DNA of 64,000 nucleotides, from assembly GCA_022414725.1 (NCBI GenBank), contig CM039464.1, positions 12,904,497 through 12,968,496 of the forward strand, given 5' to 3'. Source of the stretch: Microglena sp. YARC (Eukaryota; Chlorophyta; Chlorophyceae; Chlamydomonadales; Chlamydomonadaceae). Positions 3,161-45,789 of this stretch are shown in pieces. Numbering within the stretch: position 1 is the first letter of the stretch; every line of letters starts with the position of its first letter. The position numbers and the translations under genes were made by a program. The notes under the pieces are model-generated. The model was not told where the DNA came from. It ran no database searches and saw nothing but the letters and a program-made list of their open reading frames with translations.

Positions 3161-3281
3161 ATGATGCTGAGGGCACGGCCCATGCTGCATTCAAGGCTGG
3201 CAGCACCCACTGCGCCAGTCGTGGGCCGGCCTAGCAGGCTGAGGTGGACACCTGCCCCACCTGTGCACTTCGCCAGCCCAG
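3161..3281 (+). CDS. Candidate first coding exon: organelle transit peptide of HPR-A
   Basis: An open exon from ATG 3161 (a second ATG follows at 3164) to a strong 5' splice site, CCCAG|GTAAGC, at 3281/3282. A candidate acceptor CCTGCAG lies at 3140-3146, just upstream. The encoded 40 residues are rich in Arg, Ala and Pro, contain no Asp or Glu, and begin MMLRARPMLHSR, as expected of a chloroplast or mitochondrial targeting peptide. Copy B (22542-22671) preserves frame, donor and sequence. The exon ends in phase 1. HPR-A, -B and -C all have an AG at the same aligned position (5627, 26224, 44668) that would accept this phase. Joining the exons is inference; the donor and the conserved frame are seen. 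Upstream, the first ATG of copy B is GTG here (3155), so translation would begin six bases later. Confidence 0.5.
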
Positions 3282-3510
3282 GTAAGCATGAGTGCACACA
3301 CATTCATCAGAGCAGCCTACAAGACAACACTTTTTCTAGCTGATGAGAAGAAGAAAAAATATTTCACGAACATGACACGAACGCCACGTCGCTCTATCTA
3401 CTTATCGCAGTTCAAAAATAACTGGCATAACGCAGTGTACACCCAACCTGGAATATCGCAGTGTAAAAAAACTGGAATATCTCAGTTAAACACAACCTTG
3501 AATAGCCTCA

Positions 3511-3640
3511 GGGCCCCCGTCGGTTAAATGATTGTTTGGGATTCACTTCATCAGTGCTTTATCGTTTTAGCTCCTCCTATTACGGTTTGGCAAGTCCCAT
3601 CAGCCTATTTTGCCTACCCCAGGATTGTAACAACATACAT
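3511..3640 (+). mobile_element. SINE-like short element, GGGCCCC-CGTCGGT family
   Basis: Runs from GGGCCCCCGTCGGTTAAATG to GGATTGTAACAACATACAT. The consensus also contains a TTTAGCCCCTCC block, GGCAAGTCCC and CCTACCCCTGGACTGTAACA. It recurs about twelve times in the window in both orientations, usually ending in a CATA or CACATA tail. No coding capacity. Confidence 0.6.
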
Positions 3641-3675
3641 TTGCTACCCACTGTGCCAGATGTTTGCGCATATAT

Positions 3676-3683
3676 GTTGATGT

Positions 3684-3770
<87 letters not shown>
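3676..3770. repeat. (ATG)n microsatellite
   Basis: About 30 units of GAT/ATG directly after a SINE-like element. Block B (around 23050) has no such tract, so it expanded or contracted after duplication. The poly-Met and poly-Ile frames across it are not genes. Confidence 0.95.
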
Positions 3771-4267
3771 CATTTTCCTGGTGCCCTACTGGACTCCAAA
3801 TGTGCCCTCGGTTTGACGGAGTCAAGGGGGACTTATGAACATCATGCACAAAGAAGAAAAGAAAAATAAATAATTTGATGTGCCATTCTGATAGGTGAAA
3901 ACTTTCGTCGGTCATCCGAGTACATATATGTCTGGATAAATTACATCATTTAGACATTCAAGCTCCTCGCTGTCTGCAGACAAAAGTAAGAGGGATAAAA
4001 TAAACACAAACACACCACTCTCATCGAGGACAGATCACAATCCCCATTGTGATGACATATTACAAACATTCCCAGGTCCGCTCATGGGGTACCCCAACAA
4101 CCACGGGATAACCAATGTATGCACTGTCGAGATACAGCCAGAGAGGAGGGCACAATTACTTACTCATCTCATATGCAGATCGGCTCCTTGAAACTTAGAT
4201 TCTCCCAGACATGTCATCCTAGTATCTGCTACTGTGGCAGTAAATGCAGCAACATAGAAGGATGCAA

Positions 4268-4561
4268 TCACTCACATATATGCAGTGACTTCAATAACCT
4301 TAGATTGTCCCTTACCTGATGTCTCATAATGAGCGCATTTGGCTTGGCTCCATACATGAAGCTTCGATTTCCCCTGACATGTGTTCCTATTATCTGCTTC
4401 TTACTGCTGTTCAGATGAGCGGCTAGCCAGGCCTGCAGGAGCAAAAGACCCTCGCGATAGCTCTGAGTTTGATGCGGTAAGTTACCATCTTCACGATTTG
4501 GGGCCAGAACTTGAATTGGGGTTTGTGGATCCAGCCTAAGGCAGCTTGCTGGCTCTAGCAT
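4268..4561 (-). CDS. Small ORF kept open in both blocks, unknown
   Basis: A 97-codon frame on the minus strand whose counterpart in block B (23435-23674) stays open over about 78 codons despite many substitutions. Both share stretches such as HQTQSYREGLLLLQAW and AAHLNSSKKQI. No domain recognised and no membrane segment. It lies inside the inferred HPR intron, on the opposite strand. It may be a small gene or exon, or simply a frame not yet broken since duplication. The counts of synonymous and non-synonymous changes would decide. Confidence 0.25.
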   Translation of the reverse strand: MLEPASCLRLDPQTPIQVLAPNREDGNLPHQTQSYREGLLLLQAWLAAHLNSSKKQIIGTHVRGNRSFMYGAKPNALIMRHQVRDNLRLLKSLHICE

Positions 4562-5289
4562 GCATTGCCTTGTTTCGGAGCATAGCTGGGTAACTTGTGT
4601 TTTATTCAGGACACATGGACGGGTTGGGTATGTGGCTTGCTAGCTGCGCTACACGTGATAGATGCAGGAATAGATGCTTGAAGCGTTTTGGTCCTAATGG
4701 CAATTAAAAACAAATACAAATCTTAGAGGGGGAAGATTTTGGTGGTTGGCCTCGTAATACTACTATAGTACTATCATAATACTATTATAATACTACTATT
4801 TACTTACAACTCTCAGTATGCAATCTTGTTTGAAACAGCCGACCAGGTTACAAGGAAGAGGTGATGTGCAATATTGTTTGAAACAGCTAAACAGGTTATT
4901 AGGTTATGCGGGAGATAGATGGGATGCCCACAGGAAATGAGGGGATGGGTTTTTTAAAGGCAGATAAGGTGAGGGGATGGAGCCAATCCTGCCTGACAAT
5001 CGGCTCATGCATCGGCTAGAGCAAGTTACGGTCCCCCCCTGGTGAATCTGCACAAAAGGATGGTACAAAATCAACCAGTCACCATCATCGGCATTCGGTT
5101 TACGCTTGACAGTGACAAAGGCTCAAGTTTCTTCATTTGGTCATCAAAATGTCACAAAATATTATCAGGCAAAAAATCAAATGATTGAAGAAGTGCTTGT
5201 ATGCCCATACGTTGTAAAGATAATGTCAGACTTATGCACCGAATCTGATACTACTATACACATACAAAATTACCTATGCATACTAGCTA

Positions 5290-5620
5290 ATACTTACACA
5301 TGCATCAGATCTTGCTAACGCACACATGGGCTCATACCAACGCAAACATATGCCCACAGTATTGCTGGTGTCCACATGCTGCAGGAACCAGCCACTACCT
5401 CCGCAAATACATGAGCTAATACTACCGAATGCATCAGATCATACGAACGCACACATATGCTCACAGTATTGGTAGTGCCCACATGCCTCAGGAACCGACC
5501 ACTACCTCAGCAAATACATGAGCTAATACTACCGAAGGCATCAGAACATGCTCACACACACATGGGCTCATACTAATGCACACACATGCTCACAGTGTTG
5601 CTGTCTACCCAATGCTGCAG
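5290..5620. repeat. About 115-bp tandem repeat carrying the acceptor region, three units
   Basis: Three degenerate units, each with a CGCACACATGGGCTCATAC-like start and a CACAGTATTGCTG block. The first ends GCTGCAGGAACCAG (about 5380), the second GCCTCAGGAACCGA (about 5490) and the third GCTGCAGGTTCCAG (about 5615, at the HPR-A exon). Block B has only one unit (about 26120-26220). The repeat multiplies the putative 3' splice region in front of HPR-A. Confidence 0.7.
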
Positions 5621-8599
5621 GTTCCAGTAGGACTCGAGGTGATCAAGACGATCACAGCTTGCCAAGATCTGACAAGCTTACACAAAGCCATTTACAACCG
5701 CAGCCAGGACTTCAACCATACTCAAGTCTGTGCTGCCATGGAAAGGATGGTTGAGATCCTAGGGAAACCTACTCATGTGAAGAAGTTAAAGCTGTTGGAG
5801 TTTTACCTGGCCCAGCAGCTCATGGAAGAACTAAGTGAGGTGGCCCTGGGATGTGTCCATGACATGGATGCTCCTGCCCTCTGCATTGTGCTTGGGGCTT
5901 TGAACAGAGTTGGAGGCACCCCAAACTCCCCCTTGGTGCAGACAATCGTGCAACACACTGCGCAGAACGTGCACAGCTTTGACTCCCCCAACATCTTGCA
6001 AATCCTGTGGGCGATGGCTGCACTTGGAGTGAAAAATGATGGGCAAATTGATTACATCCGGTCAGCTGGAATTAGGGACCTGCCCCCTGACCTGCCCCCC
6101 CGTACGAGTGAGGAGCTGGCATACACTTTGTGGGCTGCTGCCAAGGTGGGTGCCATCCCTGATAACACATTCATCGTGAAATCGTTGTGTGTGGTCAAAC
6201 CCAGTCTGCGCAGTTTCAGCAGTCAGGCACTGTGTGACACTTTGTGGGCTGTAGCAGAGCTGGGGATTGAAGATAAGGCCTTCAAAGACAGCTGGATAAA
6301 CACTTTTTATAACCAGCAATCCAGGCGCCTGGCAGAGCTTAATATCCAGACCTTGGCAAACACCCTGTGGGCTGCAGCGAAGCTGGGCATCAGTATCAAT
6401 GGGTATTTGAGCTATAAGTTGGCAAAGTCCATGTTGGCTACAGACGCAATGTGTGATTTGGAGGTTTGGGATCTGTACAATGTTTTGTGGGCTGCAACTA
6501 AGCTGGACATGAACGATTCAGATTGGAGAAGCCATGGCGGGGGAGAGAAAGAACGAGATATCTTCTTCACCAAGTGGATGGATGCAGCTGTGCCCAAGCT
6601 ACATGAGCTCAATGCTCTGGCCCTGTGTGAGACTTTATCAGCTGCAGCTAAGCTGGGCATTAATGACGAGACCTTCCTAGCCAAGTGGGCGGAGGCTGCA
6701 ACACCCAAGCTACACAAAATCAGTGCTCAGGGACTTTCACAAGCTCTGAGGAGTGCAGCTGAGTTGGGCATTGACAATGAGGCCTTCACAGCCAAGTCGG
6801 TGGATGTGGCTATTGCCAAGATACAGCAGTTCAGTCCTCAGGCCCTGGCTGCCACTGTGTGGGCTGCGGCTGAGCTGGGCATTTCTGACAAGGCCTTCAT
6901 CACTACATTCGTAGAAGCGGCTAGGCGCAAGTTTCCTGATTTTGATCCCCAGGCATTGTCCGACACTCTTGGGGCTGCAGTCAAGCTGGGCGTTGAGGAC
7001 AAGGCCTTCACTACCGCGTGGGTGAATGTGGCTGCACCCAAGCTACATATGTTCAGTGTCGGGGCCTTGTCCAGCACTTTACGGGCTGCAGTCAATCTCG
7101 GCATTTTGGATAAGGTCTTCACAACCAAGTGGATGGAAGCGGCTCTGCCTAAGCTACATAATTTCAGCGCTGAGGATCTATCCCACTCTCTGTGGGTTGC
7201 AGCTGAGCTGGGTATCTGGAATAGGGCCTCCACGGTTCAATTGGTGACTGCGGCTACACCCAAGCTACCTGAGCTCAACGCTCACGTCCTTTCTGAGATC
7301 GTGTGCGCTGCTGCCAAGCTGGGCATCGACAATGAAGCTTTCAACACCAAGTGGGTGGCTGTGACTACACCCAAGCTGCCTGCCATGAATGTCCAGGATC
7401 TGCCATACACCTTGTGGGCAGTAGCTGTGCTCTGTATTGAGGATGCAGCCTTCATCACCAAGTGGGTGGATGTGGCTACTCCCAAACTGCCTAGCTTCAG
7501 AACTCTGGACCTGTTGACAACTTTGCGAGCTGCAGCTAAGATGGGCGTTGAGGATAAGGCCTTCAGTACCAAGTGGGTGAAGGTGACAACACCCAAGCTC
7601 CATCACTTCAGTGCTCAGGCCTTGGAAGGAACATTGTGGGCTGCAGCTGAGCTAGGCATTGAGGATGAGGCCTTTGCCACAAAGTGGGTGGATGTGGCCC
7701 TGACTAAGCTAAGTCATTTCAACCATGCAAACCTGTGTGGGACTTTCGAGGCTGCAGCTAAGCTGGGCATCAGCAACAGGGCCTTCTATACCAAGTGTGT
7801 GAATCTGGCCACGCCAAAGGTACACACTTTCAGTGATCAAGACCTGTCGAACAGTTTGTTTGCTGTAGCCGAGCTGGACATAAAGGATGAGGCCTTCCTA
7901 TCCAAGTGGGTAGCTGTGGCTACACCCAAGCTACATGAGTTCAGCCCTCAAGCCCTGTCAGACACTTTGTTTGCTGCAGCCAGGCTAGGCGTTCAAGATG
8001 AGGCCTTCAACACCAAGTGGGAGGATGCGGCGGTGCCCAAAATTCATGAGTTCAGTTCTGATGCCATGCTAAACACTTTGAAGGCTGCAGAAAAGCTGGG
8101 AATGCACATTGAGGCCTTTATTGCCAAGTGGGTGACTATGACTACACCCAGGCTGCCTGGCATGGATGCCCAGTTCCTGTCAGACACTGTGGTTTATGCG
8201 TATGATCTGGACATTCAGGATGAGGCCTTCCTTACCAAGTTGATGGATGCGGCGCTGCCCAAGCTGCATGAATTCAGTGCTGATGCCCTCTCCAACATTA
8301 GGCACATAGCTTCTGCTTTGCAAGAGGACCTCGGAGCCAAGTGGGTGGCAAAGGCCACACCCAAGCTGCCTGATTTGGATACTGGGGACCTTTTAAAGAC
8401 TCTCTGCATCGCAGATGAGCTGGTCATTAAGGATGTGGCTTTCCTGTCCCAGTTGGTTGATGGGACAGTGCGAAAGCTACACGAGTTCAGTGCCGACGCC
8501 CTGTCTGAAGTGCTGGTCACAGCTTCATCGCTAGGCATTGATACGAAGGACATCCAAACCAAATGGATGGCTGTAACTACACCCAAGCTGCCTGACTAA
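5612..8599 (+). CDS. HPR-A: 37-aa helical-repeat protein, ends at premature stop
   Basis: Long frame encoding the family N-terminal domain (TITACQDLTSLHKAI, then LAQQLMEELSEVA, DMDAPALC and VQTIVQHTAQNVHSF) followed by about 23 consecutive 37-residue repeats with the pattern L-x-x-T-L-W-A-A-A-K-L-G-I-x-D-E-A-F-x-x-K-W-V-x-x-A-x-P-K-L. This is the Trp-containing HPR/OPR-like class known from organellar RNA-binding and RAP proteins. No RAP domain is visible. The in-frame ATGs are at 5576 and 5612, but splicing from 3281 into an acceptor at 5627 fits phase. TAA at 8597 interrupts an otherwise continuing frame (to 9376). Relative to HPR-B it lacks a block of about 960 bp and has two extra repeats next to the stop. 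The probable role is binding chloroplast or mitochondrial RNA; this is inferred from family only. It may be a truncated functional protein or an early pseudogene. Confidence 0.75.
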   Translation: MLQVPVGLEVIKTITACQDLTSLHKAIYNRSQDFNHTQVCAAMERMVEILGKPTHVKKLKLLEFYLAQQLMEELSEVALGCVHDMDAPALCIVLGALNRVGGTPNSPLVQTIVQHTAQNVHSFDSPNILQILWAMAALGVKNDGQIDYIRSAGIRDLPPDLPPRTSEELAYTLWAAAKVGAIPDNTFIVKSLCVVKPSLRSFSSQALCDTLWAVAELGIEDKAFKDSWINTFYNQQSRRLAELNIQTLANTLWAAAKLGISINGYLSYKLAKSMLATDAMCDLEVWDLYNVLWAATKLDMNDSDWRSHGGGEKERDIFFTKWMDAAVPKLHELNALALCETLSAAAKLGINDETFLAKWAEAATPKLHKISAQGLSQALRSAAELGIDNEAFTAKSVDVAIAKIQQFSPQALAATVWAAAELGISDKAFITTFVEAARRKFPDFDPQALSDTLGAAVKLGVEDKAFTTAWVNVAAPKLHMFSVGALSSTLRAAVNLGILDKVFTTKWMEAALPKLHNFSAEDLSHSLWVAAELGIWNRASTVQLVTAATPKLPELNAHVLSEIVCAAAKLGIDNEAFNTKWVAVTTPKLPAMNVQDLPYTLWAVAVLCIEDAAFITKWVDVATPKLPSFRTLDLLTTLRAAAKMGVEDKAFSTKWVKVTTPKLHHFSAQALEGTLWAAAELGIEDEAFATKWVDVALTKLSHFNHANLCGTFEAAAKLGISNRAFYTKCVNLATPKVHTFSDQDLSNSLFAVAELDIKDEAFLSKWVAVATPKLHEFSPQALSDTLFAAARLGVQDEAFNTKWEDAAVPKIHEFSSDAMLNTLKAAEKLGMHIEAFIAKWVTMTTPRLPGMDAQFLSDTVVYAYDLDIQDEAFLTKLMDAALPKLHEFSADALSNIRHIASALQEDLGAKWVAKATPKLPDLDTGDLLKTLCIADELVIKDVAFLSQLVDGTVRKLHEFSADALSEVLVTASSLGIDTKDIQTKWMAVTTPKLPD

Positions 8600-9376
8600 G
8601 ACACCGAGGAACTGACAAACACTCAGCGCATCGCAGCTGAGTTGGGCATTGAGGATGAGGCCTTCCTGTCTCTGTTGGTGGATGAGGCAATGCCCAAGCT
8701 GCTTGATTTCACTGCTGACGCCCTGTCCGAAGAGCTGTACACAGCTTCTCTGATGTGCATGAATGAAAAGGACATCCAAACCAAGTGGGTGGCTGTGGCT
8801 ACACCCAAGCTGCGTGGTGGCATGGATGCCCAGGCCCTGTCAGATACCTTGTGGACTGCATCCAAACTTGGTATCGAGGATAAGGATTTCATCAACACTT
8901 GGGTGGCTGTGTCTGAACCCAAGCTGGGTGAAATGAGTTCCCAGGCCCTGTCAAACACCTTGTGGGCTGCAGCGAAGCTTGGAATCCGGCATAAGGCCTT
9001 CATCAACAAGTGGGTGAATGCGGCTACACCTAAGCTGCACGGAATGAGCTCTCAGGCCCTGTCAAACACCTTGTGGGCTGCAGCTAATCTTGGTATCCGG
9101 CATGAGTTCTTCATCATCGTGTGGGTGAATGTGGCTTCACCTAGGCTGCATGTCATGGATTCCCAGGCCCTGTCAAACATCCTATGGGCTGCAGCTAAGC
9201 TTGGTTTGGAGGATAAGGCCTTCCTCGCTGAGTGGTTGGCTGTGGCGACACCCAAGCTAGATGGTTTCAGTGCTCAGGCCTTGGGAGTGACTATGTGGGC
9301 CGCAGCTGAGCTTGGCATTGATGATGAGGCTTTCAGCACAAAAGTGAGTGCATGTGGCCATGTCCAAGCTACGTAA
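8600..9376 (+). pseudogene. HPR-A C-terminal remnant beyond the premature stop
   Basis: Directly continues the HPR-A reading frame after TAA 8597-8599 and encodes about seven further repeats (including LSDTLWTASKLG and LSNTLWAAAKLGI twice over), ending at TAA 9374-9376 after GHVQAT. HPR-B has the matching C-terminus GHVQAK, so this was the original gene end. At the end, AAAGTGAGTGCATG replaces the AAGTGGGTGGATG of a normal repeat and resembles a splice donor, but no downstream exon is seen. Confidence 0.7.
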
Positions 9377-9413
9377 CTGATATCAATCATGCAAAGCTGC
9401 CTCAACCTGCTGT

Positions 9414-9722
9414 CACTGTCTCTGTTTTGGGCTTCCAGTCAGCTCCATCAGCCAGCCATTGGGTCATGCCCAACGTTTTCAGCTGCATTGGAGTGACTGT
9501 CATATCAGCTTCCGCACTCACTGGCTAGCTTCTGGCTGGGCCCACGAAGGGGGTTGCCTAGAAGCTGTTGTGTGTAGCCCAAGGACGGGTGAAGGGGGCT
9601 GCCTAAAAGCTGCTATGTGTAGCCCAAGGTCAGGTAAAGGGAGCTGCCTAGAAGCTATGGATAGCCCAAGTACAGGTTAAGGGGGCTGCCTAGAAGCTGC
9701 TATGGGTAGTAAAAAGAAAGTG
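9414..9722. mobile_element. hAT-type MITE (CACTG family) with internal tandem units
   Basis: Left end CACTGTCTCTGTTTTGGGCT, right end AAAGAAAGTG, with the family inner TIR GCAGCTTCTAGGCAGC. The right arm is amplified into four roughly 45-bp units of CCCAAGGACGGGTGAAGGG plus GCTGCCTAGAAGCTGCTATG. Flanks CCTGCTGT/CTGGTGTG only weakly resemble an 8-bp duplication. Copy B is 31610-31948; the inverted copy is truncated at 49708-49729. Confidence 0.6.
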
Positions 9723-9736
9723 CTGGTGTGGCTGTA

Positions 9737-9879
9737 GTTGGCCAAACTATCAATGACCGGGCTTTCCTTACCAAGTGGCTGGATCTGACTACGCGCATCC
9801 TACACCATTTAAGTGGAGTCAACCAACATCTGTGGGCTGAAACCAGGCTAGGCATTCTCCTCGATATCTTCATCTCATA
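9737..9879 (+). pseudogene. Decayed HPR repeat downstream of HPR-A
   Basis: Reads as one frayed repeat pair (DRAFLTKWLDLTT, then LWAETRLGI) with no start and ending in a stop. Homologous relics follow HPR-B (31964-32147) and sit inverted at 49265-49690. They are probably the old 3' end of the array, separated from it by the MITE. Confidence 0.55.
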
Positions 9880-11162
9880 ACAGGTGAATGTGTCTACCTG
9901 TAAGCTCCAGATATGTACATGATTATGTCCTGGAAGACCTAACGTCACTAAGGACAGGTCCCATTCAGCATTGGGCTAAGAAGAGACTATACTTAGCTAC
10001 CTAGACTGTATACTGGTAAAATGTATAAACAGCCATTGTGTCTACAACTTTCTTGGCCTTCCACCCAGACGTCCTCTTGCCCGAGCTGCCGCAACTTGTG
10101 CAGTTCATGTCCATATAGGTGCTAGCTGGAAAAAGGTTTGAGCACCATATAAGCAAGAGTGACGTGAGTACAAATATAGTACCGTAAACATACTCAATTT
10201 TCAGGAAAAGAGTATGGTGCGGATTTTAGGTGCGCACGGTCCGTATTACACAAACCTGGCCGCAAGTCCTGCATTTGTACAACGGCCAGACCACTCCGTC
10301 CCTGTCAGATTCTGTACATAAAAAAATAGATAGGCAGGGAGTTGGGATGAGGGGATGAGGCCTTCACCTTCATGTTCTGTGTATGTATGTGGTTTTTAAG
10401 GGGTTGTATGCCCCTTTCTGATTATATAAATTGGTGTGCTGGTCATTGAGACCTTCACCTCATGGATGCTGCATGTGGCTGGGACTCATACAACACTCAA
10501 GATCTATGATTTGGACTCTCAGGGCCTGCCTGCTAGCTAATTTGGGCATTGAGGTTGCTTGAGGCCTTCACCTTTATGTTTTGTGTAAATATGTAAGCGC
10601 TAAAGCCACAGGGTTTATCGCCTTGGCCCTGTCTGGTAATGTCAATTGGTAAGCTGGGCATTTAGGCCTTAACCTTCACCTCCTGGATGCTGCATGTGGC
10701 TGGGACTCACACAGCACTCAAGATCTATGATTGAGACTCTCAGGGCCTGTCTGCTAGCTAAGCAGGGTATTGAGGATGAGGCCTTGCCCTTCATGCATTG
10801 TGTAGATATGTCTGGTCTAAAGCCACAGGGTTTAATACCTTGGCCCTGTTTGGTAATGTCGATTGGTAAGATGGGCAGTGAGACTTTCACCTTTACCTCC
10901 AAGATGCCTAGAGGTCCATGAATGAGACCCTCAGGGCCTGTCTGCTAGCTAAGTTGGGATGTAAGGATGAGGCCATCACCACCAAGTATATCAAAACACA
11001 TTACATGAGCATGTTGAATTTTTGCTTCCACGGAAGCGTTTCTAGCCGAATTGGATTTAGTACTGGCAACAGCTATCCACCCTTAATGCAGGACGTTGAT
11101 TTTTGAGAGTGGTTGTGATTGAGAGTTGTAAAAACTTTGAGTTTGATTGCATGGTCTGTCAG
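9880..11162. repeat. 3' region with about 222-bp duplicated HPR-derived sequence
   Basis: No intact gene. Between 10340 and 11010 decayed units of the form GAGGATGAGGCCTTCACC with CTCAGGGCCTGTCTGCTAGC are seen, i.e. the remains of QALxxTL-LLAKLGIEDEAF. A block with GGATGCTGCATGTGGCTGGG is present at about 10464 and 10685, about 222 bp apart. Block B (32630-32880) has a single unit. Confidence 0.5.
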
Positions 11163-11366
11163 CACTGTCTCTTTTTTGCACTACAAAAGGCAGCTTCCAG
11201 CCAGCTCCATTAGCCAGTCACTGAGTGAAGCTCAAAGATTCCAGCTTCATTGGAATGCCTGTTAGGTCGGCTTTCAAATGGTCTAGCTAGATTCAGGTTT
11301 TGGCCCAAAGACGGGAAAATGGAGCTTCCTAGAAGCTGCTACATGTAGCCCCACAAATAAACAGTG
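11163..11366. mobile_element. hAT-type MITE (CACTG family)
   Basis: 204 bp. The TIRs of roughly 45 bp are imperfect: CACTGTCTCTTTTTTGCACT at the left, against a right end that reverse-complements to CACTGTTTATTTGTGGGGCT followed by TAGCAGCTTCTAGG. Flanks TCTGTCAG (11155-11162) and TCCATCAG (11367-11374) are a decayed 8-bp target duplication. The homologous copies at 32958-33161 and 48213-48416 sit at the same site. Confidence 0.75.
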
Positions 11367-11379
11367 TCCATCAGCCATC

Positions 11380-12507
11380 GTGCTACGGCCAGGCTCTCAG
11401 GCTGCATCCTGCCCATGTGGGCAGTACACACAAGTCTACCATTACTCCTAAATAAAGAAGACATCGGAAGGGTGAAGACAATGTACCCAAGTAGCCCTGA
11501 CTCCACTGCTGTACTGGGCAGTTTCGTTGCTGTACTGCTTAGTACTGCCTCAGTGTTATTTTTGAGTTTTTCATTGCAGCTCATTGTAACAATTTCCAGC
11601 AAGGGTGAAGACAGATGAATGGCATGCCCAGTTCAATTCTGCATTCACATGTTGTCTACTATTTATATGGTATTGATTTGCGGCAGCAGCTGTAATGAGG
11701 ATCAAAGCTGGATCAGAGTACATTCATTATTCCACATGGATTCAAACCCAACTCCTCAATTCGCAACTTAAATAAGCATGCATGATTTATTCTGGAAGGT
11801 CTTCACAGCCTTCGCCAGCAACAAAATGTCAAAATTGCTGTCCTGTGTTTTAGGCACGTGTGGGCTGGTCAAGTGCTCTCAGTTGGTCTGCTAGCAAAGA
11901 CCTGCCTCAACCGGCGTATCTTCCCACGAATCATCAATGGTGGAAGAGGAGTATCCGGAATCACATTAGCAACGTATGACGACCAATTCGTCCTCTACTT
12001 TCCAGCACGCTTTGGGATCTATCTCGAGACTTGTCGTTGCCTTCGCGAATCAGAATTTCGTACACTCCTGAGAGAGCGCTGAGCTGTTCGACACGCTGGC
12101 TGCGTAATTGCTAACTAGGGTCGAACGTCAAGCCAGGGACTCTTAGGGTTCAGTTGACGCACTGGGCCTGGAAAGACAACTCGATCATTCGTGTGGGTTG
12201 ATAGACCCAAGACTCGAGCAAGATCGTCGAGCCCAAAGTTAGCCTGTCGACATGCGCGACCTACTTACGTTGAAAATAGCTAATGTAGTTATAGACACTT
12301 CTCCCCCTCGTTCATGATTCATGATCCGCGGAAAGATACACTTGCATGCCTTTGGCACATCCATGCCAAAAGGCCAATAGAGCAAGGGACCATCCCAACT
12401 GCTTGATGCACACTAAAGCCATTTGATTTTTTGAAGATTCTGGAGATGGTTAGCACCGTTGAAGTTGATAAAGGTAAGCAGCTTTAAAGATCTGGGTTCA
12501 ACTGCAA
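11380..12507. other. Unique 3' region of block A, no gene recognised
   Basis: Shared with B (33170-34330) and inverted at 47070-48200. Small frames exist in all three copies, for example around 11858-12082, but stops and indels differ and no protein family is evident. The stretch 11870-12080 is the best conserved between copies (GTGGGCTGGTCAAGTGCTCT and neighbours) and could be a degenerate exon. Confidence 0.35.
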
Positions 12508-12515
12508 GCAGAATT

Positions 12516-12723
12516 CACTGTTTCTTTTTTGTACTCCGCATGGCAGCTTCCATCCAGCCCCATCAGCAAGTCACTAAGTGAAGCACAAAGATTCCACCTT
12601 CATTGGATTGCCTGTTTTGTCAGCTTTCAGATGCACTACCTAGATTCAGGTTTGGCCCAAGGACGGAGAAAGGAAGCTGTCTAGAACGAAGCTGCTACAT
12701 GTGGCCCAATAAAATAACAGTGG
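12516..12723. mobile_element. hAT-type MITE with perfect 8-bp target duplication
   Basis: CACTGTTTCTTTTTTGTACT to AAAATAACAGTG, 208 bp, with imperfect inverted arms (GCAGCTTCCATCCAGC / GCTGTCTAGAACGAAGCTGC). It is flanked by GCAGAATT at 12508-12515 and 12724-12731. An 8-bp duplication with CA-TG-type termini is the hAT hallmark. Copies: 34339-34545 and, inverted, 46858-47060. Confidence 0.85.
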
Positions 12724-12790
12724 CAGAATTCAGAGCACAGTTCAATCTTTGCTTACAACGCCTGATGTTTGTGTGCATGTTATTAAAAAT

Positions 12791-12900
12791 CCAGGGGTAG
12801 CCAAATAGGCTACTTGCCCAACCATGATTTCAGGAGGGGCTCAAATGAAAAAAACGCTGATGAATTGAACCCCAAACAATTGTTTTACCGGTGGGGGCCC
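12791..12900 (-). mobile_element. SINE-like short element, minus orientation
   Basis: CCAGGGGTAGCCAAATAGGC to CAATTGTTTTACCGGTGGGG, the reverse complement of the family consensus. Same site in B (34612-34728) and in the inverted copy (46678-46810). Confidence 0.6.
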
Positions 12901-12942
12901 TAAGTTCGTGCTACAATGATAATTCAACTCAACTCCTAATAA

Positions 12943-13228
12943 AAAGTGCACACTGCAAAGGGGGGTACAACGATTGGGGGGGACAACTCTGCAAAGTGCG
13001 CACTGCAAAGGGGGGTACAACGATTGGGGGGGACAACTCTGCAAAGTGCGCACTGCAAAGGGGGGTACAACGATTGGGGGGGACAACTCTGCAAAGTGCA
13101 CACTGCAATGGGGGGGGAACGATTGCTTGGGGGGGACAACTCTGCAAAGTGCACACTGCAATGGGGGGGACAACAATTGGGGGGGACAACTCTGCAAAGT
13201 GCACACTGCAAAGGGGGGGACAACGATT
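12943..13228. repeat. G-run minisatellite, about 50-bp unit, 5-6 copies
   Basis: Units of AAAGTGCACACTGCAAAGGG, then GGGTACAACGATT, a 6-8 G run and GACAACTCTGC. Block B has about 2.6 units (34771-34902) and the inverted copy only a collapsed remnant (46607-46640), so the tract changes length quickly. The repeated runs of six or more G could form G-quadruplexes. Open frames on both strands are products of the period and not genes. Confidence 0.9.
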
Positions 13229-13616
13229 GAATTCAGGATTGAGTCATTGACCTAGGCACATTTGTAAGCTGTCTTAACCCTTGTCATTGCATTCTGTACT
13301 CACGAGTGTGAAGTAATATTTGAATACCATACTGCCCATAATGACGTTCAAGGGAAGATTAAGCAGCCTGGTGGCAAATAGACCATGTTATCAATGCAAA
13401 ACTTACTTTGACCCTCATAAACAACTGCTGCTAAAAATCAATGTCAAATCAAGTGTGGAAAACTGCTGTCAAACTGAATCCAAAGTAGCCAGAAATGCCT
13501 ATGCACAAACTGATATCAACATATTCATGTAATGTGTCTCGAGATGCTTAGTGATCAAGGCCTTATCCTCAATGCCCACCTGCTGAGTCAGCAGACAGGG
13601 CCTGGGGGACTCATCA

Positions 13617-15080
13617 TTGATATTGAGTCGCCCCAAGCTTGGCATCTTGGATGAGTTCTTCTTTACCAAGTGGGTGGCTGCGGCTATGCCCAAGCTAGCT
13701 GACATGGATGCCCAGGACCTGCTAGATGTGTTGTGGTTTGCATTGCATCTTGGTAGTGAGGATGAGGTCTTCATCGCCAAGTGGGTGGATGCGGCTATAC
13801 CCAAGCTGACTGACATGGACTACAGTGACCAGATGACGCTGAACGGTAGCACTTTCGATTTGTATGGTATTTCAGATTGGCTGGGGTACCAAGCCTTCCT
13901 ATCTAAGTGGGAGGATGCAGTGGTGCCCAAGCTACAAGATTTCAGCACTAGCGCCCTGTATGGCTTGCTGTCCATGGCTGGGTCCTTGTCGGGCGACTCC
14001 CAGACCATGAACATCAAATGGTTGGATCTGACTACACCCAGGCTGCCGGACCTAGATGCTGAGGACCTGTTAACAACTTTTCGAATTGCTGGCGTGCTTG
14101 GTATTCAAGATAGGGCCTTCCTTGACAAGTTGGAGTCTGTGGCACCACCCAAGCTGACTGACATGGATGCCCAGAGCTTGTTAGACACTTTGTGGTTATC
14201 ACAAGGTCTTTGTATCATGGGAAAGCCCTTCTTCCCCGAGTGGGCGGCTGCAGCTACACCCAAGCTGCCTGACATGGATGCCCAGGGCCTCATAGATGCG
14301 TTGTGTTTTGCAGCTAGGTTTGATCTTGAGGATGAGGTCTTCATCGCCAAGTGGGTGGATGTAGCTACACCCAAGCTGCCTGGCATGGATGCCCATGGCC
14401 TGTTAGACGCGTTGTGGTGTGCAGCCAAGCTTGGTATGGAGGATGAGGTCTTCATCGCCAAGTGGGTGGATGCGGCTATACCCAAGCTGCCTGACATACA
14501 TGAATACCTGAACGACAATATCTTGTATGGTGGAAATGCGGATGGTGATGGTAGGCTGGTAATGTTGTCCAAGGACGACATTGATACTAAAGCTTTCATA
14601 TCCAAGTGGGTGGATGCAGTGGTGCCCAAGCTACTAGAGCTCAGTGCCGACGCCCTGTCTGGCATGTTGTCCTTAGTTTGTACATTGCTGTGCTTTGAAA
14701 ACAGGGACATCATCTGCATCAAATGGGTGGCTGAGGCTACGCCCAGGCTGCCGGACCTAGATGCCCAGGCCCTGTCAACCACCTTGCGCATTGCATATGA
14801 GATTGGTGTTGAGGATGAGCCCTTCTTTTCCAAGTGTGTGGCTGCGGCTACACCCAAGCTGCCTGACATGGATGCCCAGGCCTTGAAAGACACTTTGCGT
14901 GCTGCAGCTGGGCTGGGCATCTCAGATGAGGCCTTCACCTCAAAGTGGGTGGCTGCGGATACACCCAAGCTGTCTGACATGGATGCCAAGGCCCTGGCAG
15001 ATACTTTGCAGCTTGCAGCAAAGCTGGGCATTAAGGATGAGGTCTTCAACCAGCTGGGCACTAGACCTTCATCCAGATAA
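13617..15080 (+). pseudogene. N-terminally truncated HPR array fragment
   Basis: About 12 repeats of the family in one open frame (LLDVLWFALHLG, LLDALWCAAKLGM, LKDTLRAAAGLGI and others), with two irregular inserts (around 13820-13870 and 14500-14580) that lack the canonical LW motif. There is no family N-terminal domain and no good start. The frame simply emerges at about 13630, where repeat sequence abuts the 3' region shared with B (CGCCCCAAG), which marks a breakpoint. The 3' end runs into a collapsed repeat satellite and stops at 15078. It may be expressed as an internal exon of a larger gene, but it is more likely a recombination-derived fragment. Confidence 0.6.
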
Positions 15081-18546: not shown

Positions 18547-18899
18547 GTACGGTATGCAGGTCCCATTGAAGCCTTAGACAAGATTGTGTAAAGAGATTGA
18601 ATACCGGTAAAATCAATTGTGCCCTTAACCATTAAGGCCTTGTCAGAGACCCCAAATTATGCTGGGAGTTGGGGATGAGGCCTTAACATTGCCATGTAAT
18701 GTGTGGACGTAGCTGAACTGAAGCAACACGATTAGGTCCCTCAGTCAGCCCCTATGAGGTACTGTCTACCGGTATTGGCATGCTAGGCAATTAGGCCTTC
18801 ACCTACTGGTGGGTGCTGCAAGTGATTGCGGACTCAATTTCCATGCTTGAGTCCCGCAGGGCCTTCCTGCTCATTCGTTTGGGCAGTAAGGACGAGGCC

Positions 18900-21291: not shown

Positions 21292-21438
21292 TCTGGAAAT
21301 TATCATAACCCTGTCAGACTCGCCCAGGCAGCGATGCAAGCGAGGCGGAAAATCGGCGGACAGCGTTCGGTTGGCAACGAGTTGACAGGTGGCAACGATG
21401 GAGCAAGCCAGATTGTTAGGAGACCGTTGGCTGACGTG

Positions 21439-23674: not shown

Positions 23675-23744
23675 CCTAAGGCTGCTTGCTACCTTTAGCT
23701 GGCACTGTCATGTTATGGAGAATGGCTGCCAACTTGTGTTTTAT

Positions 23745-31572: not shown

Positions 31573-31609
31573 CTGATTTCAATCATGCCAAGCTGCCTCA
31601 AAATGTTGT

Positions 31610-31948
31610 AACTGTTTCTGTTTTGGGCTACTCATGGCAGCTTCCAGTCAGCTCCATCAGCCAGCTACTGGGTCATGCCCAACGTTTTCAGCTGGATTGG
31701 AGTGACTGTCATATCAGCTTTCGGACGCACTAGCTAGCTTCTGCTTGGGCCCAAGGACGGGTAAAGGGGGCTGCTTTGGAGCTGCCATATGTAGCCCAAG
31801 GACGGGTGAAGGGGGATGTCTAGAAGCTGCTATGGGTAGCCCAAGGACGGGTAAAGGGGGCTGACTAGAAGCTGCTATGGGTAGCCCAAGGACGGGTGAA
31901 GGGGGCTGACTAGAAGCTGCTATGGGTAGTCAAACGAAAGAAACAGTG
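31610..31948. mobile_element. hAT-type MITE with four 45-bp tandem units
   Basis: ACTGTTTCTGTTTTGGGCTA to GAAAGAAACAGTG. CCCAAGGACGG recurs at 31750, 31795, 31840 and 31885 with exact 45-bp spacing. Same site as 9414-9722. Confidence 0.7.
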
Positions 31949-31963
31949 CCTAGTGTGGCTGTA

Positions 31964-32147
31964 GTTGGCCTGACCATCAGTGGCCGGGCCTTCTTTACTT
32001 AGTGCGCCAATCTGACTACGTGCATGCTACACAGTTTCAGTGAAGTCAACACCCTGTGGGCTGAAGCCACACCATTCCTGTAGAGTCAACCAACACCTGC
32101 AGGCTGCAGCCAGGCTGGGCATTCTTGACGATATCTTCATCTCATAA
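31964..32147 (+). pseudogene. Decayed HPR repeat downstream of HPR-B
   Basis: Same relic as 9737-9879 with an extra partial unit (ACCCTGTGGGCTGAAGCCAC before AACACCTGCAGGCTGCAGCC). Stops and shifts prevent translation. Confidence 0.5.
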
Positions 32148-32149
32148 CT

Positions 32150-32957
32150 GGTGAATGTGTATACCTGTAAGCTCCAGATATGTACTTGATTGTGTACTGG
32201 AAGACCTAAGGTCACTATGGACAGGTCCCTTTCAGCATTGAGCTAAGAAGAGACTACACCTGGCTACCTGGACTGTATAAAATGTATAAACAGCAACTGT
32301 GTCTAAAACTTTCTTGGCCTTCCAACCAGACGTCCTCTTGCCCGAGCTGCCGCAACTTGTGCCGTACGTGTACTGCATATAGGTGCTAGCTGGAAAATGG
32401 CTTTATCACCCTATATGCAAGAGTGTCGTGAGTACAAATTGAGTACCTTATACGTACTCAATTTCCAGGAAAACGTGTATGGTACGGATTGTAGGTGTGT
32501 ACAGCCTTATTACGCAACCCTGGCCGCAAGACCTACATTTGTGCAAGGGCCAGCCAGACTACTCCGACCCTGTCAGATTCTGCACATACAGAACTAGATA
32601 GGCAGGGAGTTGGGATGAGGGGATGAGGCCTTCATGTTCTGTGTACGTATGTGGCTACGTTCAAGGGGTTGAATGCCTTCCCCATGTCTGATTATATCTA
32701 TTTGTATGCTGGTCATTGAGGCCTCCACCTTCACCTCCTGGATGCTGTATGTGGCTGGGATTCTCTGGGATGGGAAGTTCCATGAAGGAGACCCTGAGGA
32801 CCTGCGTTATAGCTAAGTTGGGATTTTAAGATGAGGCCATGACCACCAAGTATCTCCATACGCATTGCATGAATATGTTGGAATTTTGCTTTGATTTTTG
32901 ATAGAGATTGTAATTGAAAGTTGCACTAACTTCGAGTTTGATTGCATGGTCTATGAG
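32150..32957. other. 3' region of block B, no gene
   Basis: Parallel to A 9880-11162 but lacking the 222-bp duplication. Contains single HPR-derived remnants (GGATGAGGCCTTCATGTTCT near 32621). Confidence 0.45.
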
Positions 32958-33161
32958 CACTATTTATTTTTTGTGCTATGCATGGCAGCTTCCAGCTAGC
33001 TCCATTAGCCAGTCACTGAGTGAAGCACACAGACTCCAGCTTCAGTTGAATGCCTGTTATGTTGGATTTCAGATGCACTAGCTAGATTCAGGTTATGGCC
33101 CAAAGACGGGGAAATGGAGCTTCTTAGAAGCTGCTACATGTAGCCAAAACAATAAACAGTG
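32958..33161. mobile_element. hAT-type MITE
   Basis: CACTATTTATTTTTTGTGCT to CAATAAACAGTG. Flanks TCTATGAG (32950-32957) and TCTATCAG (33162-33169) match at 7 of 8 bases. Confidence 0.8.
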
Positions 33162-33169
33162 TCTATCAG

Positions 33170-34338
33170 CGATTCAGCCATTATGCATTTATGCCACGGC
33201 CAGGCTTTCAGGCTGCTTCCCGTCCACGGCAGTACAAACAACTCTAACATTACTCCTGAACAAATAAAACAACCACAAGGGTGAAGACCATGCACCCAAG
33301 CAGCCCCTGAATCCACTGCTCTACCGGGCAGTTTCGCCGCTGTAGTGCTCAGTACCGCCTCAGTGTTATTTTTTCGTTTCTCATTGCAGCTCATTGTAAC
33401 AATTTCCAGCAAGGGTGAAGACAGATGACTGGCATGCCCAGGTCAATTCTGCATTCACATGGTGTCCACTACTTATATGGTATTGATTTACGGTAGCAGC
33501 TGTAATGAGGATCAAAGCTGGATCAAAGTACATTCAATATTCCACATGGATTCAAACCCAACTCCTCCATTCACAACTTACAGAAGCATGCATGATTTAT
33601 TCTGGAAAGTCTTCACAGCCTTCGCCAGCAACAAAATGTCAAAATCGCTGTCCTGTGTTTTAGGCAGGTGTGGGCTGGTCAAGTGCTCTCAGTTGGTCTG
33701 CTAGCTAAGACCTGCCTCAGCCGGCGTATCTTCCCGCGAATCATCAATGGTGGGGGAGAAGTGCCCGGAATCGCATTGGCAACGTGCGACGGTCAATGCG
33801 TGTTCTACTTTCCATCAAGCTTTGGGTTTGACGATCTGTCTCGAGACTTGCCGCTGCCTTCGCGAGTCAGAATTCCTTAGACAGCGCTTAGCTGTCGTTG
33901 TTGACACGCTGGCTGCGTGATTGCCAACTAGGGTCGAACTTGTCAAGCCAGACTCTAAGGGTTCAGTTGAGGCGCTGGGCCTGGAAAGCCAACTTCGATC
34001 ATCGTGTGGGTTGACCGACCAAAGGCAAGTCTCGAGCAAGATCGTCGAGCCCAAAGTTATCCTGTCGACGTGCGCGACCTACTTCTGTTAAAAATAGCTA
34101 ATGCAGTTATGGACACATCTCCCCCTCGTTCATGATTCATGATCCTCAGAAAGATACACTTGCATGCCATTGGCACGTCCATGCTAATAGGCCAATAGAG
34201 AGCAAGGGACCATCCCAACTGCTTGATGCACACGAAAGCCATTTGACTTTTTGTAGATTCTGAAGATGGTAGGCACCGTTGAAGCTAATAGAGGAGGTAC
34301 GCAGCTTTGAAGATTTGGGTTCAACAGCGTGCAAAATT
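33170..34338. other. Unique 3' region of block B, no gene recognised
   Basis: Copy of A 11380-12515; see there. The 33668-33880 stretch is the best conserved piece and has different frame breaks in the two blocks. Confidence 0.35.
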
Positions 34339-34545
34339 CATTGTTTGTTTTCTGTTATACGCATGGGAGCTTCCATCCAGCCCCATTAGCCAGTCACTGA
34401 GTGAAGCACAAAGATTCCAGCTTCATTGGAATTCCTGTTATGCCGGCATTCAGATGCACTAGCTAGATTCAGGTTAGGCCCAAGGACGGAGAAAAGAAGC
34501 TGCCTAGAACGAAGCTGCTACGTGTGGCCCAACAAAATAACAGTG
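34339..34545. mobile_element. hAT-type MITE
   Basis: CATTGTTTGTTTTCTGTTAT to AAAATAACAGTG. Flanks GCAAAATT and GCAGAATT differ at one base. Confidence 0.8.
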
Positions 34546-34611
34546 GCAGAATTCAGAGCACAGTTCAATCTTTGCTTACAACGCCTGATGTTTGTGTGTA
34601 TGTTGTTAAAA

Positions 34612-34728
34612 TCTAGGGGTAGCCAAATAGGCTAAAGGGACTTGCCCAACCATGATTTCAGGAGGGGCTCAACTGAAAAAAACGCTGATGAACTGGACCC
34701 CAAACAATCGTTTTACCGGTGGGGGCCC
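34612..34728 (-). mobile_element. SINE-like short element, minus orientation
   Basis: TAGGGGTAGCCAAATAGGCT to CAATCGTTTTACCGGTGGGG; same site as 12791-12900. Confidence 0.6.
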
Positions 34729-34770
34729 TAAGTTCGTGCTACAATGATAATTCAACTCAACTCCTGATAA

Positions 34771-34902
34771 AAAGTGCACACTGCAAAGGGGGGGACAACG
34801 ATTTGGGGGGACATCTCTGCAAAGTGCACACTGCAATGGGGGGGACAACGACAGGGGGGGACAACTCTGCAAAGTGCACACTGCAAAGGGAGGGACAACG
34901 AT
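34771..34902. repeat. G-run minisatellite, about 2.6 units
   Basis: Block B counterpart of 12943-13228, with fewer units. Confidence 0.85.
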
Positions 34903-34929
34903 CAAATTCAGGATTGAGTCATTGACCCA

Positions 34930-35786
34930 GGCACATTTGTAAGCTGTCTTAACCCATGTCATTGCATTCTGTACTCACGAATGTGAAGTAATATTTGAAT
35001 ACCATACTGCCCATAATGACGCGCAAGGGAAGAGTGAGCAGCCTGGTGGCAAATAGACCATGTAATCAATGCCTAACTTACTTTGACCCTCATAAACAAC
35101 TGCTGCTAAAAATCAATGTTAAATCAAATGTGGAAAACTACTGTCAAACTGAATCCAAAGTAGCCAGAAATGCCTATGCACAAACTAATATTAACATATC
35201 CATGTAATGTGTCTCAAGATGCTTAGTGGTCAAGGCCTCATCCTCAATGCCCACCTGCTGAGTCAGCAGACAGGCCATGGGGGACTCATCATTGATCTTG
35301 AGTCGCCCCAAGTTGAGCAGCAGGCACAAGGTGATGTGCCAAGGCCTCTATGCCCAGCTTGGCACTAGTCAAACAGGATCCCTGATAGGGCCAAGGCATT
35401 CAGCCTTAGCTTAGCCCTGGGCTTATATGGGACCTGCCCACTGGCAGAACCCTTAGGCCTTTCGGGGAACAATCATATACATAGCTGGAGCATATAGGTA
35501 GACACGTCCACCGTCATACGAGGTGGCAGTCTTGCTCGTCAAGAATGCCCACCTTAGCTGCAGTCTAGTAAGCGTTTGGCAAGACCAGGCCATTGTAATT
35601 GTGTATCTTGGAACGAGTTAGATCCACCCTCTTGGTATAGAAAGCCCAGTCACTGACGCCCCGGACAACTGCAGCCACAACACTTCCAGTCAGCTTTGCC
35701 TAGTTGTAGTCAGCCAGCTTGGGCATGGCCACATCCACTCACTTATTCATGAAAGCCTCATCTTCAATGCCAAGCTCAGCTACAGC
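34930..35786. other. Junction region between block B and the minus-strand HPR module
   Basis: Up to 35313 it is block B (A 13258-13640). 35314-35400 continues the sequence also found inverted at 46085-46200, showing that A, not B, was broken at 13630. 35420-35786 is the 3' module of minus-strand HPR genes (also 41045-41490 and, inverted, 17260-17600), with a decayed repeat at 35505-35690 and an empty SINE target site at 35677-35685. Confidence 0.6.
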
Positions 35787-43473: not shown

Positions 43474-43479
43474 CTACGT

Positions 43480-43690
43480 AGATGAAGGGATGAAGGCCTC
43501 ATCCTTAATGCCCAGCTGAATGAAGGCCTCATCCAAATGCCTCAGCTTATTAGCTGGATGAAGGCCTAATGCCCAGATATATGAAGTAACGAAGGCCACG
43601 TCCATAATGCCCAGCTGGATAAAGGCCTCATCCTTAATGCCCAGCTAGATGAAGGCCTCCTGTCCATCTTAGCTGGATGAAGGCTCATAC
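43480..43690 (-). repeat. HPR-core satellite, inverted copy
   Basis: GATGAAGGCCTCATCCTTAATGCCCAGCT-type units (split at about 43496-43640), the reverse complement of the 15061-15830 satellite; only about seven units. Confidence 0.75.
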
Positions 43691-44420
43691 ATGGTACAAT
43701 AAGACACGCTTGAGATTGTACTAACACACTTAGCCACTGCCACTGCCACACCCTCCACCTCATACGGGGTACACTAAGACACACAATAGCTTGTACTAAC
43801 ACACTCAGCCACTGCCACTGACACACCCTCCACCTCATACGGGGTACACTAACACACACAATAGCTTGTAATAACACACTCAGCCACAATCACTAACGCA
43901 CACTCGACCACACACGGGGTATACTAACACACACTCATGAGCTTGTACTAACACGCTCAGCCACAGTCACTAACGCACACTCGACCACACACGGGGTATA
44001 CTAACACACACTCACGAGCTTGTACTAACACGCTCAGCCACAGTCACTAACGCACACTCGACCACACACGGGGTATACTAACACACACTCATGAGCTTGT
44101 ACTAACACGCTCAGCCACAGTCACTAACGCACACTCGACCACACACGGGGTATACTAACACACACTCATGAGCTTGTACTAACACGCTCAGCCACAGTCA
44201 CTAACGCACACTCAACCACAAACGGGGTATACTAACACACACTCATGAGCTTGTACTAACACGCTCAGCCACAATCACTAACGCACACTCGACCACACAC
44301 GGGGTAAACTAACACACACTCATGAGCTTGTACTGACACACTTAGCCACAGTCACTAACGCTCACTTAACCTCATACGGGGTATACTATCACTCCTAGCC
44401 ACAGTCACTAACACACACAC
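43690..44420. repeat. 77-bp minisatellite, about 9 units
   Basis: Unit GGGGTATACTAACACACACT, CATGAGCTTGTACTAACACG, CTCAGCCACAGTCACTAACG, CACACTCGACCACACAC. The middle five units are nearly identical; the outer ones (TAAGACACACAATAGC; CACCCTCCACCTCATAC) are older variants. Not coding, and no unique spacers as in CRISPR. Confidence 0.9.
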
Positions 44421-44439
44421 ATGAGCTAGTCATATGCAG

Positions 44440-44620
44440 GGAACGGCAACTAATATTAGTGTTTGAAATACTAATATTAACTAATATTATTTTAGTGTCA
44501 CAATAATATTAGTTTTTCAAATAAATTCGAATTTCTGGTGAGACGGCTTGTCCGACTAATATTAAATAATACTATATAATATTATTTATTCACTAGTATT
44601 ATATAACATAGCCGATCCCT
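44440..44620. repeat. AT-rich palindromic stretch (CTAATATTA words)
   Basis: ACTAATATTA, TAATATTAGT and TAATATTATT repeat on both strands over 170 bp immediately upstream of HPR-C. Possible hairpins; could be a MITE remnant or part of the HPR-C promoter or intron. Confidence 0.5.
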
Positions 44621-44668
44621 AGTCATATGCTCATAGTACTGCTTCCACACAAACTGTGTAGGAATCAG

Positions 44669-45789
44669 GCACACCAGAAGTGGTTATGGCAACCATCGAG
44701 GGCTGCCGGAATATGACAAGCTTACGCATGTATGTCTCTCGGCAGAATACCTTGCAATATGACGGGAGGTATGTCTGTGCTGCCATTGATAAGGTGGCTG
44801 AATTACTTGAAAGATCAACCGAGCCATTTGGGACTGTCATGGCCCAGCAACTGATCAAAAAACTAAGTGAGGATGCCCATTACTATCCCAGTGACATGGA
44901 TGATTTGGCCTTGTCCAGTATGCTTTGGGCTTTGATCAAAGCGGGTACCCCAGAAGCCATGGTGCAGTGTCAAACCCAAGAAGGCAGGTTGATGGTCAGA
45001 ATCCTAGAAGAAGTAGCGCAAACCCGTGGCGTGGACCCCTACATCTGCTTAAGAATTGTACGGGCAATGGCGTATTTTGGAAAAGACGTCCTTGGACAAT
45101 GCTGTTTTTATGATGACCTACCTGATAAACTCTTGTCAGATGGAACTCGTCAAGTTTCGGACCTTCTCCACATCGAGCCTGACGAGCTATCTGACATTCT
45201 ATGGGCTGTAGCCAGGCTGGACATCGGGAATGATGATTTTGTCACCAAGTGGGTGTCTGCATCAGTACCCCAGCAAGATGATTTCAGTGCCCAGGCCTTG
45301 GAGAAATCCTTGTGGGCCGCCGCTGAGCTTGGCATTGATGACAAGGCTTTCACCACCAAGTGGGTGGACGTGGCCATGTCCAAGCTGGCTGATTTCAGTC
45401 TTGCAAACTTGTGTGGAACTTATGAGGTTGCACCTAAGCTGGGAATCAGAAATATGGAATTCTACACCAAGTGGTTGGTTCTGGCTACGCCCAGGTTGGG
45501 CGATTTCAGTTCTCTGGACTTTTCAAACACTTTGTGGGCTGTGGGTGTGCTGGGTATCAAAGACGTGGCCTTCCAAACCGAGTGGGTGGCTGCGGCTAAA
45601 CCCAAGCTGCCTGACATGAGCCCCAAGGCCCTGGCAAACACATTGTGGGCTGTAGGTGTGCTCGGTATTCTGGATGCGGACTTCTGCAAGGAGTGGTTGT
45701 ATGCGGCTAAGCCCAAGATACGTGAGTTTAGTATTGAGGACAGGGCCAATACTATGTGGGCTTTCGCAAATTTGGGCTTAGATTTGTAA
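44669..45789 (+). CDS. HPR-C: short HPR family member with N-terminal domain
   Basis: Open from TAG 44659-44661 to TAA 45787. The N-terminal domain aligns with HPR-A and -B (EVVMATIEGCRNMTSL, YVCAAIDKVAELLE, MAQQLIKKLSEDA, DMDDLALSSMLWALIKAG) but is clearly diverged. Then come only about six repeats (LSDILWAVARLDI, LEKSLWAAAELGI, LCGTYEVAPKLGI, FSNTLWAVGVLGI, LANTLWAVGVLGI, RANTMWAFANLGL) and a natural-looking stop at DL. The first in-frame ATG is 44686. An AG at 44667-44668 aligns with the phase-1 acceptors of HPR-A and -B, so an upstream exon is likely but is not found in this window. Probably an organellar RNA-binding helical-repeat protein. Its divergence from A and B shows it is an older paralogue. 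Confidence 0.75.

Follow-up and report, generated by a model that had tools for sequence, protein, structure and literature searches.

The window analysed here is a stretch of 64,000 nucleotides from the green alga Microglena sp. YARC (GenBank assembly GCA_022414725.1, contig CM039464.1; G000:C3:12904497-12968496 in the coordinates of the genome searches), in which three plus-strand genes, HPR-A, HPR-B and HPR-C, lie among decayed arrays of the same kind of repeat (Table 1). As had been proposed from the letters of the window (the sequence-only reading), the three genes share an N-terminal domain (N-domain), which is helical, is 88% (A) and 37% (C) identical to that of HPR-B over the matched part, and is accompanied by tryptophan-rich repeats of 37 residues, detected in the DNA as 111-bp tandem arrays by Tandem Repeats Finder (TRF). 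A hidden Markov model (HMM) of the repeat finds 31, 46 and 7 matches in A, B and C, respectively, partial and weak ones included. The description of HPR-B as a giant intact member is borne out by its second exon, a single open frame with 0 stops in 1783 codons (counted from 26221), while the TAA in HPR-A is the sole stop within the repeat frame of that gene. Recoding of TAA and TAG as glutamine, considered as an explanation of this stop, was rejected because HPR-B uses 52 CAA or CAG codons and no stop-type codon in its 1783 codons.

Table 1. Features of the window (positions in nucleotides, position 1 being its first letter) and clusters of N-domains in the genome (positions in Mb, by contig).
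Feature	Position	Strand	Description
Duplicon copy I	1..13644	+	direct copy of II
HPR-A exon 1	3161..3281	+	basic presequence-like peptide, predicted donor GTAAGC; conserved in B and family proteins
HPR-A exon 2	5628..9376	+	N-domain and repeats (31 matches), in-frame TAA at 8597-8599
Decayed array P1	13587..17312	+	repeat matches, stops
Duplicon copy II	18654..35319	+	direct copy of I
HPR-B exon 1	22548..22671	+	predicted donor GTAAGC
Reverse transcriptase open reading frame	24516..26003	-	RVT_1 E 7e-10; inside predicted HPR-B intron 1
HPR-B exon 2	26225..31572	+	intact, ~1,780 residues, 46 repeat matches; N-domain ~26225-26697
Nine repeats alternating two types	30373..31371	+	222-bp higher-order unit; TRF period 222
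Decayed array P2	35500..38300	-	no N-domain; open for at most 425 aa
Decayed array P3	41381..43700	-	inverted copy of 3' part of P1, ~82-86%
HPR-C exon 2	44669..45789	+	short; diverged N-domain, ~6 repeats
Inverted copy of A/B 3' flank (9.8-13.6 kb)	46183..49299	-	79-86% identity
Cluster	C1 112.27-112.77 Mb		12 N-domains
Cluster	C1 9.64-9.93 Mb		8 N-domains
Cluster	C1 13.53-13.72 Mb		6 N-domains
Cluster	C3 12.886-13.038 Mb		6 N-domains, A, B, C included
Cluster	C2 12.38-12.45 Mb		5 N-domains
Cluster	C3 44.80-44.85 Mb		4 N-domains

The short first exons of HPR-A and HPR-B differ at 5 of 117 bases, and the acceptor before exon 2 was presumed to lie at the AG that keeps the phase in A, B and C. 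Words similar to TACTAAC, a branch-point-like motif, precede exon 2 in A and B; the window has 14 plus-strand TACTAAC motifs, 12 of which fall in a 77-bp satellite (about nine copies, 43704-44392) just upstream of HPR-C. The reverse transcriptase reading frame in the predicted intron of HPR-B has no aligned counterpart in the HPR-A intron. Tandem repeats of 45 bp occupy corresponding places behind A (9546-9709) and B (31749-31929).

The direct and inverted duplications seen in the sequence-only reading are present, the region 39755-42798, an inverted copy of 16.1-18.9 kb, being one of the inverted ones. Outside the repeats, six A/B segments are 85.7-92.9% identical (exon 1 with the N-domain, at 91.8%, among them), and at an A/B identity of 86-93% a false duplication through unmerged haplotypes is unlikely. 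Three decayed arrays, P1 to P3, each contain at least 14 stops in each of the three frames read, and array fragments lie near 9.75-9.9 kb and 32.1 kb; the earlier figure of at least five broken arrays is reached only if the pieces of P3 and the fragments are counted apart.

Between HPR-A and HPR-B, repeat number is the fast-changing feature, and nothing points to selection in favour of amino-acid replacement, as judged from identities and from ratios of nonsynonymous to synonymous substitution (dN/dS). Repeats in register are 90.5-91.1% identical (three sets), the same as the flanks, so that faster substitution in the repeats was rejected; a value of 73.8% from long gapped A/B alignments is an artefact of repeats aligned out of register. 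The last nine full repeats of HPR-B have a mean identity of 0.879 at lag 2 versus 0.777 at lag 1, and for some B units the best match is not the in-register A unit. For 18 in-register pairs, taken from the 31 matches of A (A1-A6, A22-A24 and A28-A31 are excluded, being partial or irregular, lacking a sure partner or falling within the alternating end), dS is 0.174, dN 0.086 and their ratio 0.49, and the A/B N-domains give 0.55. Positive selection on the repeats was looked for in these pairs and not found. The portrayal of the locus as a hot spot of nucleus-organelle conflict thus holds for its duplication and decay, but the conflict itself finds no echo in the A/B ratio or in repeats that differ no more than their flanks; since the change consists of gain and loss of repeats and not of dN/dS above 1, such conflict is no more than a possibility here.

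In Pfam, HPR-B matches FAST_1 (E 2.3e-29) and DUF6832 (E 4.8e-11), and its sequence matches in the PDB at E<=0.01 are RESC6, ASA2, mL123 and mL115, with nine matches up to E 1, proteasome activators among them at E 0.3. An AlphaFold2 model of residues 1-610 is an all-alpha solenoid, helical throughout, with a mean predicted local distance difference test (pLDDT) score of 84, and a fold search with this model returns 48 PDB matches at E<=0.001, with organellar proteins in all of the top 24 places (trypanosome RESC, mitoribosome and ATP synthase ASA proteins). Adaptin, condensin and spliceosome folds start at rank 25, interspersed with more organellar ones, and on this ranking an ARM/HEAT identity, which the sequence-only reading had named as an example of an unrelated family that would refute it, was rejected. 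The profile, PDB sequence and fold matches together support the placing of A, B and C in the class of the heptatricopeptide repeat (HPR) and octatricopeptide repeat (OPR) proteins, as proposed; in the available text of one account, HPR counts as a subset of OPR, forming one family, and the OPR motif is described as not being in domain databases (PMC13126933). No pentatricopeptide repeat (PPR) match was found in the seven window proteins scanned. The Rfam scan gave nothing at gathering score, and the NCBIfam scan only matches far below their own cut-offs.

Many clusters of this family exist in the genome, and the locus is one of them. In the 568-Mb assembly (2390 contigs), a search with the N-domain of HPR-B yields at least 138 matches at E<=0.01 among the best 150 of 436 candidates, and a second search, with a query from C1, at least 162 among the best 150 of 628, largely at the same places by eye; all such counts are lower bounds. 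At least 78 N-domains are near full-length (query start <=12 and end >=165, counted by hand), 69 of them without stops and nine with an internal stop. On a tree built from the N-domains of 30 fetched loci and of HPR-C (31 in all), the cluster labels need 10 changes, whereas shuffled labels need 21.1 on average and in 0 of 200 shuffles as few as 10. Four of the seven clusters tested are single clades, the others being those at C1 9.7 Mb (2 changes) and C3 14.9 Mb (2) and the window's own (3). The N-domains are under purifying selection, as is illustrated by a dN/dS analysis of 21 of the 30 fetched loci, in which five of six clusters have medians of 0.29-0.44: 0.29 at C1 112, 0.30 at C1 13.5, 0.44 at C1 9.7, 0.40 for three minus-strand genes in the window's cluster, and 0.29 at C3 45 (one pair). 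Genome-wide, RAP gives 10 matches (18 candidates scored) and PPR_2 47 matches (110 scored) at about 13 places, so that HPR/OPR-type genes look far commoner here than PPR genes, although a search with Pfam profiles and one with an N-domain from this very genome are not directly comparable.

Outside the window, one branch of the family carries an additional domain. In the annotated proteins P0001 and P0002 the repeats are followed by a C-terminal domain resembling the tail of a retrotransposon polymerase, and since the part of P0001 searched (its C-terminal 324 residues) is 100% identical to locus C501 of the genome, the two proteins very probably come from the same species as the genome. In a search of 5.8 billion proteins with this tail, 15 matches at E<=0.001 were obtained, comprising 11 annotated HPR proteins, all from the EukProt set and including P0001 and P0002, and four reverse transcriptase proteins (P0139-P0142; one from Chlamydomonas eustigma), to which the tail is 42-45% identical; RVT_1 is found in all four, in one just under the curated cut-off. 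Within the reach of this search the fusion is known from one species. Tail and HPR part share one open frame at 14 places in the genome, in 13 of which the fetched frame contains an N-domain (whole or cut) as well as the tail; the fetched piece of C501 has repeats and tail, its N-domain being supplied by equal frame length and P0001. Further tail copies are broken or cut short, and at L060 and L062 (G000:C1:12.169-12.182 Mb) open frames are seen in which the tail end is repeated two to four times in tandem.

By its sequence, the tail is derived from the retrotransposon polymerase tail. Fifteen tail copies (the 14 and L062) give dN/dS values of 0.17-0.72 with a median of 0.418 (105 pairs), and four acidic residues are kept (D in 14/15, E in 15/15, D in 15/15 and D in 15/15); the same D-E-D-D pattern is present in the reverse transcriptase proteins, apart from the first D in P0142. 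The tail gives no RNase H match in Pfam or the PDB, the reverse transcriptase profile finds reverse transcriptase parts only, and the fold is not modelled by AlphaFold2 (pLDDT <50). Alignment to E. coli RNase HI by hhalign is weak, with probabilities of 4.4% (reverse transcriptase tails) and 1.6% (fusion and reverse transcriptase tails), scores that were matched by 2/150 and 0/150 shuffles, respectively. The former alignment sets E, D and D on residues E48, D70 and D134 of the enzyme, and the mixed one extends only to E and the second D. Among 81 repeat units of the 11 fusion proteins (of 83 matches, score >=30), variation is concentrated at positions 1, 20, 17, 11, 25, 15 and 33, and the A/B pairs differ most often at positions 11 and 33 (6/18 each); such positions are candidates for base recognition.

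The suggested targeting to an organelle draws on a single feature, a basic first exon free of acidic residues that recurs in the family. Of 98 places scored, 90 match the first 97 residues of P0002 at E<=1, many of them in the known clusters and adjoining N-domain genes, although some of the weak matches may be due to chance. A, P0001, P0002 and P0133 each have 3-6 arginines or lysines and no aspartate or glutamate among their initial 40 residues, with a helical hydrophobic moment that is high for A alone (0.42) and is 0.23-0.28 for the other three. Seven other annotated fusion proteins start differently, perhaps because of wrong gene models. On this sequence evidence, import of the family proteins into an organelle is likely.

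Taken as a whole, these genes probably encode nuclear HPR-type alpha-solenoid proteins that are sent to an organelle, bind RNA there and duplicate locally, with one RNase H-like branch. The presequence exon would direct the protein to an organelle, the conserved helical N-terminal cap would open the solenoid, and the repeat array would bind organelle RNA lengthwise, thereby protecting, processing or translating particular transcripts. Growth of the family would proceed via local tandem and inverted duplication, array length would change when whole repeats or two-repeat units are exchanged unequally, shifting the targets by repeat gain and loss, and copies losing head, frame or exon 1 would decay. 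One branch would have captured a C-terminal retrotransposon RNase H-like domain, which probably equips the RNA binder for cutting. A bolder version, conceivable but doubtful, sees a large and still growing nuclear arsenal of organelle-targeted HPR proteins, with a branch of sequence-guided nucleases made by domestication of a retrotransposon RNase H: the array would pick the organelle transcript and the RNase H would cut the RNA-DNA hybrid. If true, the hybrid cut could belong to an R-loop, for instance, or to an intermediate of reverse transcription, and the system could serve control of, or defence against, selfish organelle RNAs.

A number of observations weigh against the reading as organelle-sent RNA binders with an RNase H-like branch. 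RAP, which is common in OPR proteins, has no match in the seven window proteins scanned, and an exon 1 for HPR-C was looked for and none found. In a protein search with HPR-B (covering lengths of ~993-3160), HPR-B itself is absent from the EukProt results, though that set holds its relatives P0001 and P0002, where it may be unannotated or split. The one N-domain pair at C1 116 has a dN/dS of 0.66, and the A/B repeat ratio counts in the same direction, as does the result by position, in which none stands out with a nonsynonymous proportion (pN) well above the synonymous one (pS) on adequate counts. The name RNase H is a weak one, drawn from the position after the reverse transcriptase domain in the related elements, the pattern of acidic residues and a profile alignment of low probability.

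Subunits of organellar complexes make up several of the top matches by sequence and by fold, and the proteins might themselves be structural parts of that kind (of the OPR-fold mitoribosome or ASA2 type) that do not select RNA by sequence; this is unlikely, in that a target-recognition family accounts better than a fixed complex for a count of at least 78 gene-like loci and for repeat numbers that vary widely. It is quite improbable that the family is mostly non-functional debris, locally amplified without a selected role, for although decayed arrays and fragments are common and nine of the 78 N-domains contain stops, the other 69 are open, exon 1 is kept, and the N-domain medians are low in five of six clusters. 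Nor do we give much weight to the idea, very improbable in our judgement, that mobile elements carry the HPR genes, as cargo or as components, and that the RNase H-like tail is the sign of a retrotransposon into which HPR repeats were taken up. The identity of the tail to the C-terminal part of reverse transcriptases and the reverse transcriptase frame inside the predicted intron of HPR-B would be in keeping with it, but RVT_1 is present in 0/11 of the fusion proteins' precomputed Pfam lists, the presequence stays on a separate exon in family genes, and the cluster labels follow the tree, as expected from local duplication.

Restorer-type (Rf) PPR clusters of plants are known for the clustered birth and death of organelle RNA binders, built there from 35-residue PPR repeats. 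The cluster expansion seen here resembles them, with repeat gain and loss readable directly in the DNA, but differs in that PPR matches are few in this genome. With the apicomplexan HPR and green algal OPR proteins the family has in common two-helix solenoid repeats of 37-38 residues, the FAST_1 match, nuclear genes and an organelle-targeting-like N terminus, and it differs from them by lacking RAP, by its conserved N-terminal cap, by two-repeat higher-order units and by the 46-match array of HPR-B. The NCL/NCC OPR-RAP cluster of Chlamydomonas likewise consists of tandemly duplicated OPR paralogues (PMC13126933, PMC8635915), although the NCL proteins have, in the available text of these papers, 7-12 repeats and a terminal RAP, whereas the present family has no RAP and forms many clusters over several large contigs. 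A lineage-specific OPR expansion of at least 101 members, mostly organelle-targeted, is described for Paulinella, with 1-13 motifs of 38 residues and many proteins carrying FAST and RAP; the available text has no mention of RNase H (PMC7729196). HPR/OPR clusters and expansions are therefore already known. New, as far as our searches show, are the size of the family and its RAP-less form, the very long alternating array of HPR-B and the fusions to an RNase H-like tail; the listings of the literature searched name no RNase H domain in an OPR or HPR protein. Relative to the polymerase C-terminal region of P0139-P0142, which they resemble in identity and in the D-E-D-D pattern, the fusions differ by the absence of a reverse transcriptase and by an insert of ~34 residues in the tail. 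If active, they would represent a case in nature of a modular RNA-binding array joined to a nuclease from a retrotransposon, and because their homogenised arrays vary at few positions, an HPR/OPR recognition code could be tested through them.

Elsewhere in the genome, four intact rbcL matches are found (two on C996, one each on C1833 and C2356), as well as stop-filled ones on C1833, C2018, C764 and C2110; an intact rbcL is of the green type, with green-lineage and unnamed sequences as its nearest matches. Within the window, the region 51149-61829 shows an excess of C over G through much of its length, a degraded 32-bp tandem repeat at 51149-52067, and reverse transcriptase-like pieces with many frame changes; it resembles uncorrected long-read sequence and is followed by a 1000-base N gap (61830-62829). 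Tandem repeats of 31-33 bp at 1637-1709, 38648-38732 and 39631-39732 have as their core the palindrome GCGTCCCAGGACGC or a variant form.

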